From Clostridium celatum DSM 1785 (GTDB lineage Bacteria > Bacillota > Clostridia > Clostridiales > Clostridiaceae), in NCBI RefSeq assembly GCF_000320405.1, contig NZ_KB291705.1:1-64000 (forward strand): a DNA stretch of 64,000 nucleotides, given 5' to 3'. Below are positions 57,133-58,561 of the stretch, one piece after another. The notes under the pieces were generated by a model. It had not been told where the DNA came from, did no database searches, and was given only the letters and a program-made list of their open reading frames with translations. Each line of letters starts with the position of its first letter. Positions within the stretch are counted from its first letter, which is position 1. Position numbers and translations under genes: made by a program.

Positions 57133-57147
57133 TGATAATTATTATCA
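57133..57147 (+). promoter_or_regulatory. Fur box 1 of enolase promoter
   Basis: TGATAATTATTATCA is a perfect match to the 7-1-7 Fur consensus. It ends six bases before the -35 box of the enolase promoter. Confidence 0.9.
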
Positions 57148-57153
57148 ATTAAG

Positions 57154-57183
57154 TTGATATTTATTTATAAATTTTGGTATAAT
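57154..57183 (+). promoter_or_regulatory. Sigma-A promoter of enolase gene
   Basis: TTGATA (57154-57159), 18-base spacer and perfect TATAAT (57178-57183). The transcript would start near 57190, inside the pair of Fur boxes. Confidence 0.75.
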
Positions 57184-57195
57184 TAAACAAATTAT

Positions 57196-57210
57196 TGATA
57201 ATGATTCTCA
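57196..57210 (+). promoter_or_regulatory. Fur box 2 of enolase promoter
   Basis: TGATAATGATTCTCA matches the Fur consensus with one mismatch and lies just downstream of the start site. Together with box 1 it brackets the promoter. Confidence 0.85.
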
Positions 57211-57268
57211 TTTTATTAATGTTTCATTTATCTATACTTATATTTTCTATTATTAGGAGGATTTTAAA

Positions 57269-58561
57269 ATGAAAAATGTTGTAGAAATAATAAATATTAT
57301 TGCAAGACAAATTCTTGACTCAAGATGTTTTCCAACTGTAGAAGTTGAAGTTATTCTTGAAGATGGAACTATAGGAAGAGCTGCTGTCCCATCTGGTGCT
57401 TCTACTGGTATATACGAAGCAGTTGAATTAAGAGATGGAAATAAAGATTACTTTATGGGTAAAGGTGTTCAAAATGCAGTAAAAAATGTAAATGAAGTAA
57501 TTGCAAAAGAACTTATAGGATATAATGTATTTGATCAAACTGCTATAGATAAAAAATTATTAGAATTAGATGGTACTGATAATAAAAGTTCTTTAGGGGC
57601 TAATGCAATTTTAGGCGTTTCTTTAGCTGTAGCTCAAGCAGCTTCTAACTTCTTAGGACTTCCTTTATATCAATATGTTGGTGGTGTAAATGCAAAAGTT
57701 TTACCAGTACCAATGATGAATATAATCAATGGTGGTTCTCATGCTGATAATTCTGTTGACTTACAAGAGTTCATGGTTATGCCATTAGGATTCGATTCAT
57801 TTGATAAAGCTATACAAGCTTGTGCTGAAGTTTATCATTCATTAAAGAAAACTTTAAATGATAAAGGTTACTCAACTGGTGTTGGTGATGAAGGTGGATT
57901 TGCTCCAAACTTAAAATCAAATGAAGAAGCTATCGAAATTATATTAGAAGCTATAACTAACGCTGGATATGAACCTGGAAAAGATATGTTTATAGCTATA
58001 GATGCTGCATCTTCAGAATACTATAAAGATGGTAAATACGTTTTAGAACATGAAGGTAAAACTTTAACTGCAGCTGAAATGGTTGACTTTTTAGAAGAAT
58101 GGGTTAATAAATATCCTATTATATCTATCGAAGATGGTATGGCTGAAGAAGATTGGGAAGGTTGGAAACTGTTAACTGAAAGAATTGGAGATAAAGTCCA
58201 ACTAGTTGGAGATGACTTATTCGTTACTAATACTACTAGATTAGAGGATGGTATTAAAAGAGGTGTAGCTAACTCAATTTTAATTAAGTTAAATCAAATT
58301 GGTACTTTAACTGAAACATTAAACGCTATAGAAATGGCTAATAGAGCTGGATATACTGCAGTTATTTCACATAGATCAGGAGAAACTGAAGATACTACTA
58401 TAGCAGATTTAGTTGTAGCTGTAAATGCTGGACAAATTAAAACTGGTGCTCCTGCTAGATCAGAAAGGGTTGCTAAATATAATCAACTTATAAGAATTTC
58501 TGAAGAGTTAAGTGATGTTGCTGAATATAGAGGAAGAAAAGCTTTCTTTAATATAAAATAA
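57269..58561 (+). CDS. eno: Enolase, probable iron-regulated form
   Basis: It converts 2-phosphoglycerate to phosphoenolpyruvate. The 430-residue protein has [21 protein letters not shown] (acid residue), [27 protein letters not shown] (catalytic Lys) and [10 protein letters not shown], so it should be active. The N-terminal motif reads [14 protein letters not shown], where enolases normally have DSRGNP or DSRCNP; the Asn is replaced by Phe. It stands alone, not in the glycolytic gap-pgk-tpi-gpm group, and has two Fur boxes. It may be a second enolase. GGAGG lies before the ATG. Confidence 0.95.

Follow-up and report, generated by a model that had tools for sequence, protein, structure and literature searches.

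The window, by which we mean the whole 64,000-nucleotide stretch of the Clostridium celatum DSM 1785 genome that was analysed, carries a gene, here called eno2, with an intact reading frame for a full-length enolase, preceded by a promoter that lies between two Fur-type palindromes (Table 1). The product scores 697 bits against the enolase equivalog model TIGR01060 (cut-off 300), matches both the N-terminal (PF03952, 194 bits) and the C-terminal (PF00113, 444 bits) enolase domains and, in the query row of its alignment to the structure 4a3r, retains the motifs assigned to the active site. The 3' end of the first palindrome is 6 bp upstream of the -35 element, and the second palindrome spans about +6 to +21 relative to the inferred start site, so that, with one box before the -35 and the other past the start, the geometry is that of a repressor; in C. 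acetobutylicum, the Feo operon also has a Fur box downstream of the -10 element (PMC5050335). The initial annotation, which described two 7-1-7 Fur palindromes, one of them perfect, around a TTGATA-18-TATAAT promoter, at a gene away from other glycolytic genes, was accurate on each of these points, and the TG at 57175-57176, one base ahead of the -10 hexamer TATAAT (57178-57183), adds an extended -10 element. The neighbours of eno2, none of them glycolytic, are a divergent pair of genes for a NifU-like and a GGGtGRT protein, a pairing in which the partner is named NifU-related in PMC5395762, and a convergent gene for a ZIP-family metal transporter, near the start of which the window scan listed no Fur-type box.

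Table 1. The eno2 locus and comparison sites in the window
Feature	Position	Strand	Basis or remark
Fur box 1, perfect 7-1-7 palindrome	57133-57147	.	TGATAATTATTATCA, 0 mismatches to consensus TGATAATNATTATCA
Fur box 2	57196-57210	.	TGATAATGATTCTCA, 1 mismatch to TGATAATNATTATCA
eno2 -35, TTGATA	57154-57159	+	TTGNNA across 5 orthologues
eno2 extended -10, TGGTATAAT	57175-57183	+	spacer 18 nt
eno2 ribosome-binding site, AGGAGG	57255-57260	+	read in sequence
eno2, second enolase, 430 aa	57269-58561	+	TIGR01060, PF00113/PF03952, PDB alignment; ATG at 57269
Terminator-like hairpin, then T run	58640-58671	+	by eye: AAGGATGAT...ATCATCCTTTTT
NifU-like gene, divergent from eno2	56201-56893	-	TIGR03419 23.2 bits, far under cut-off 187.9
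GGGtGRT protein gene, next after NifU-like, same strand	55181-56179	-	PF14057, 655 bits
ZIP-family metal transporter gene, convergent with eno2	58708-59526	-	PF02535
Segment with Fur boxes, promoter and eno2, ~1.64 kb	57064-58706	.	missing at same junction in G013, G052 (blastn)
Two Fur-type boxes (2 and 1 mismatches) ahead of CydDC-like ABC transporter pair	41009-41059	.	another double-box site in the window
Fur-type box (2 mismatches) ahead of flavodoxin gene 43006-43422	43443-43457	.	comparison site in the window

The region ahead of the NifU-like/GGGtGRT pair contains an imperfect inverted repeat around CCCAGYGGG (56960-57015, minus strand), which recurs across the genus; for this leader, Rfam gave only a chance-level match and none that was credible, and a conserved RNA structure was rejected because RNAalifold, run on our own alignment, returned no consensus fold. 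Towards the end of the window (62889-63998), two frames resemble, by eye, phage capsid and prohead-protease genes, so that a prophage is possible there.

A PF00113 search of the genome (3.55 Mb in 121 contigs, 99.6% complete) finds two enolase genes, eno2 (C109:57695-58546) and another that we call eno1 (L003, C23:85422-86273), and hence eno2 is not the only enolase of this organism. The two proteins are 90% identical over 430 residues, and both contain the motif DSRCFP. Unlike eno2, however, eno1 has no Fur box at up to two mismatches within 400 bp, and it lies near secG, rnr and smpB, which are found past several inserted genes on one side of it, with a kinase-like gene on the other (by eye). 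In many relatives, enolase is located within a tpi-gpmI-kinase-like-eno-secG cluster (genes named by eye). Thus, the second enolase that the initial annotation anticipated does exist, with operators placed to repress the promoter of the window copy, and the housekeeping copy occupies the predicted kind of place in many relatives. The proposal that DSRCFP is unusual was not supported: the motif is present in eno2, but it is the usual form in the genus (69 of 80 loci, eno1 included; DSRSFP in 6, DSRAFP in 1, DSRGNP in 2, and none found in 2), and we reject it as a marker of a second enzyme. The effective codon number of eno2 (29.1) resembles those of eno1 (29.9), the GGGtGRT gene (29.6) and the NifU-like gene (31.0), with 32-38 in five other window genes, which suggests that the protein is made in quantity, and three eno2 pairs yield dN of 0.02-0.03 versus dS of 0.39-0.53, that is, strong purifying selection.

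Orthologues of eno2 were identified in 5 of the 68 genus genomes searched (94-100% identity), in every case with the divergent NifU-like/GGGtGRT pair on one side and the convergent ZIP gene on the other. All five retain both Fur boxes, the TTGNNA -35 element and the extended -10 element (TTTGNTATAAT in four, and TTTGATATACT, with TATACT for TATAAT, in L134); the other intergenic sequence drifts, save for the stretch adjoining the NifU-like gene. In two relatives, G013 and G052, the NifU-like protein is 98% identical to that of the window and the entire eno2 segment is missing: the blastn matches of the window to L343 and L344 end at 57063 and 57029 and restart at 58707 and 58676, respectively, with just 66 and 98 bp between the flanking blocks in these two genomes. 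A relic in G040 (L337, 5251-5478) represents another state, in which nearly the whole of eno2 is deleted, with about 140 bp left, next to a NifU-like pair and an intergenic region that still has its two boxes (one mismatch each). In the nucleotide tree, the five eno2 rows (100/100) and the nine eno1 rows of the same group form a single clade of 14 rows (97/96), which identifies eno2 as a lineage paralogue and leaves a horizontal origin unsupported.

Across the genome, the Fur motif has 2 perfect and 23 one-mismatch sites (25 at up to one mismatch, counted from the list), and tight matches being this rare, two such sites 63 bp apart are unlikely to be a product of chance. Loose matches are uninformative alone: at up to three mismatches, the window has 32 versus 25.8 expected, and at up to two, the genome has 188 per strand versus 277 for a backward control pattern. 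The 25 tight sites, of which 14 are intergenic and 11 are inside frames, include one of the two perfect matches at eno2. Away from eno2, six of the 12 intergenic sites precede genes for heme oxygenase, Peripla_BP_2, a ZnuA-type protein, a NEAT protein, a ZIP transporter and feoA; another is upstream of the CydDC-like ABC pair and is accompanied by a two-mismatch box; and the remaining five are at an rpsD-like gene (by eye), a radical SAM gene with a divergent frame, a YgbA_NO gene, a 446-aa frame and a contig edge. The tight matches appear to mark a fairly ordinary Fur regulon, with eno2 among its predicted sites. In the window, the box of the YgbA_NO gene (CGATAATCATTATCA, 37352-37366) is followed by that gene and then by a DUF454 gene (36534-37366), and another ZIP transporter of the genome (L304, contig C45, site 1610) has a one-mismatch box 18 bp ahead of its start. 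A 340-aa pyruvate-kinase barrel protein (PF00224; L306, contig C54, site 1594) starts 349 bp past a one-mismatch box that is inside another frame, and in G022 (L171), a frame that resembles this protein is found about 3 kb ahead of the boxed extra enolase, which might be due to chance. As for the PF00300 genes of this genome, the locus scanned, L283, contains no Fur box at up to one mismatch.

The association of enolase with Fur-type boxes extends well beyond this locus. We collected 150 enolase loci, 80 of them in the genus, where a total of 85 places had been identified (G058, three pieces of G007 and the relic of G040 make up the difference), and 70 in other genera of the family (30 chosen and 40 best matches from a search of 206 genomes), and scanned 300 bp upstream in 147 of them, with other frames in the same loci as the background; L142, L201 and L214 have less than 100 bp upstream and were excluded (L201 is also outside the protein tree). 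At up to one mismatch, boxes precede 32 of the 147 enolase genes versus 4 of 311 other frames, with 24/78 versus 3/251 in the genus and 8/69 versus 1/60 in the other genera, all these being counts over related rows rather than independent events. With two mismatches allowed, the respective numbers are 35/78 versus 11/251 and 10/69 versus 6/60. Forty shuffled palindromes matched on average 0.15 of the 78 genus regions and never more than 2, and these controls, along with the background frames, reject chance as the source of the boxes. All four background matches were kept, although that in L134 probably corresponds to the boxes of eno as they appear ahead of the divergent gene, and those in L186 and L195 precede a gpmA-like gene near an extra eno. 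In the latter two loci (G031 and G036), this phosphoglycerate mutase-like gene, cofactor-dependent as judged by eye, is located some 3.7-4.7 kb past the start of the extra eno and has a one-mismatch Fur box about 140 bp ahead of its own start, which suggests an iron-controlled pair of lower-glycolysis genes.

The arrangement of the boxes varies by group, on or beside the promoter elements (by eye). In the window clade, two boxes surround the eno promoter; in 10 genomes, of which 7 have sizes of 5.4-6.7 Mb, a single box is found just downstream of the -10 element, at -41 to -49; in another group, one box lies about 13 nt past the -10, near -153; in L158, it is between the -35 and the -10; and in L252, L253 and L262, just upstream of the -35. 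A different signal, the 21-bp palindrome TTACTAATAATATTATGGTAA (up to four mismatches), occurs upstream of 21 of the 147 enolase genes versus none of the 311 other frames, about 110 bp ahead of the housekeeping eno, for example, in L170, L188 and L190.

Among the genus genomes with a single enolase, 15 of 48 have a box at up to one mismatch and 33 have none, keeping in mind that draft genomes scored as single-copy may miss a second copy through assembly gaps. In the 14 genomes with a related pair (13 plus G007, which was included manually as contig ends interrupt its copies), the box is at the extra copy in eight and at the housekeeping copy in none, or 11 and two, respectively, when two mismatches are allowed; the eno1 of G026 (L141), which fails the position rule, was assigned as the housekeeping copy from the tree. 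The second copies of G030 and G045 are distant enolases (57% and 66%) and were excluded; with them, the counts at up to one mismatch become 9/16 and 1/16. The boxes at the extra copies of G005, G031 and G036 have two mismatches, a level also reached by 11 of the 251 background frames, and the extra copies of G002, G019 and the partial G033 have no box at up to two mismatches (3/14). By the trees, the boxed extra copies in the window clade, in G022, in G005/G027 and in G031/G036 are separate events, and that of G007, which is outside the trees, is perhaps a fifth; the G031/G036 copy groups with a copy from another genus and may have been acquired. The original observation is real, and understated: the link between enolase and Fur recurs in a sizeable part of the genus. 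We consider it probable, although with appreciable reservation, that the enolase step of glycolysis is recurrently controlled by iron in Clostridium and close genera, where Fur operators arose or were kept in many lineages, four or five separate extra copies gave rise to pairs of an unboxed housekeeping gene and a Fur-controlled one, and the control extends to the mutase-like gene in G031 and G036.

Conceivably, the boxes at eno2 could serve the divergent NifU-like/GGGtGRT operon, with eno2 beside them by accident. In C. pasteurianum, in the early phase, the GGGtGRT protein was 7.1-fold and the NifU-related protein 2.4- and 3.7-fold higher at high iron (PMC5395762), the iron stimulon of B. thetaiotaomicron, as tabulated in PMC10434189, includes the pair, with values from -12.8 to -11, and the boxes are 254 and 317 bp upstream of the NifU-like start. 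However, among 32 distinct NifU upstream regions that are not accompanied by eno2 or its relic (33 rows, with G017 represented twice and L330 limited to 178 bp), 30 contain no box at up to two mismatches within 450 bp, and in the other two (L313 and L317, with 2 and 1 mismatches), the box is 383 bp away. Furthermore, G013 and G052 encode a nearly identical NifU-like protein and yet lack the boxes together with the eno2 segment, an operon of this kind is missing from the immediate surroundings of many other boxed enolases, and the boxes frame the eno promoter. The relatives without eno2 thus reject the assignment of the boxes to the NifU operon, which we regard as very unlikely.

The sites could also be read by another protein of the FUR family, PerR or Zur, so that the signal would be peroxide or zinc rather than iron; the genome encodes three FUR-family proteins (PF01475), and the Fur, PerR and Zur boxes resemble one another. 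Ahead of eno, however, Fur-type palindromes are enriched, whereas PerR-type (2/147 versus 4/311 other frames) and Zur-type (0 in both) are not, and the outer G, at position 2, is found in all 32 boxes and the outer C in 26, partly by construction, the boxes having been picked by consensus. We regard such a switch of regulator as highly improbable. Least probable of all is that eno2 encodes a moonlighting enolase, exposed on the surface or binding to the host, that is produced under nutritional immunity. Scarce iron does signal the host environment, and many reports describe enolases that moonlight at the cell surface, but the eno2 translation has, by eye, no signal peptide or anchor, the active-site motifs are intact, the near identity to eno1, the similar codon bias and the strong purifying selection all count against such a role, and the Fur link is found at single-copy enolases as well; nothing emerged in support of the surface protein proposed in the initial annotation.

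We are left with a reading to which we would assign a probability of roughly 0.78, namely, that eno2 is a lineage-specific second copy of enolase in the Fur regulon, repressed when iron is ample and released when iron is low. The 7-1-7 operators that frame the promoter, their conservation in the orthologues and enrichment ahead of enolase genes, and the presence of a FUR-family protein in the genome are all consistent with regulon membership. At ample iron, Fe(II)-Fur would occupy both boxes around the eno2 promoter and block RNA polymerase, and as iron falls, Fur would leave, the strong promoter would fire, and eno2 would add ordinary, presumably active enolase to the housekeeping supply from the unboxed eno1. 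Enolase depends on magnesium and is not known to be an iron enzyme, so that any benefit of Fur control would be indirect; because the enzyme uses magnesium and not iron, and eno1, of the same family, is so closely similar, we do not class eno2 as an iron-sparing isozyme swap. Iron-starved clostridia would be expected to lose the pyruvate oxidation that depends on ferredoxin, PFOR and hydrogenase and to shift to lactate, with less ATP gained per sugar; therefore, more flux and more PEP via lower glycolysis would be needed, and the extra enolase might provide for this.

The proteome of C. pasteurianum offers a physiological parallel. At low iron, two enolase spots, which may be isoforms, were up 4.1- and 4.8-fold in the early phase and 4.0- and 1.8-fold in the late phase (PMC5395762, Table 2); in the early phase, flavodoxin rose 14.3-fold, formate acetyltransferase 2.5-8.0-fold, and the NADP-dependent glyceraldehyde-3-phosphate dehydrogenase, also glycolytic, 2.7-fold, and GapA and TpiA were higher at high iron, 1.6-fold (early) and 1.5-fold (late), respectively. 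The low-iron culture grew more slowly, and its specific lactate yield increased from 0.02 to 1.6 g/g, a strong lactate shift for which the reasons are unclear according to the authors; throughout that paper, the word enolase appears once, in the table (PMC5395762). In G147, which a 100% rubredoxin match identifies as probably the genome of this species, there is no box at up to two mismatches within 400 bp of eno, the best match in 300 bp having five mismatches, so that this proteome supports the physiology and not the mechanism. An observation on C. difficile counts against the proposed role of eno2: at low iron, glucose accumulated, from which the authors infer a reduced glycolytic flux (PMC6311696). 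Neither enolase nor eno is mentioned in the main text of that paper.

Fur-controlled isozymes usually replace iron enzymes, and in the E. coli fumC and sodA pairs, as proposed here for eno2, the second isozyme is expressed when iron is short; the difference is that the main isozyme in these pairs uses iron, unlike the magnesium-dependent enolase. Titles and abstract openings in the open literature yielded no description of a Fur-controlled or second enolase in Clostridium. Within the clostridia, C. acetobutylicum fld1 has a Fur box in its promoter and is induced in the iron-limited wild type and in a fur mutant (PMC5050335), and the flavodoxin gene of the window likewise has a Fur-type box, but flavodoxin replaces an Fe-S protein and saves iron, whereas enolase replaces no iron enzyme. 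The nearest concept that we found for eno2 is the S. aureus GpmA, an extra lower-glycolysis isozyme encoded outside the glycolytic operon that is induced by metal starvation and keeps glycolysis running (PMC6684088). In S. aureus, however, it is manganese that is scarce, and one mutase of the pair does without a metal (PMC6684088), whereas eno1 and eno2 are close paralogues, and the operator at eno2 is of the Fur type.

If these conclusions hold, a Fur-controlled enolase would directly connect iron to sugar flux in clostridia at the level of regulation, through an enzyme with no iron requirement of its own, and might be of use for directing the production of solvents or lactate. In the broader context of the family, the recurrence of the boxes would mean that lower glycolysis is coupled to iron status by way of a non-iron enzyme.
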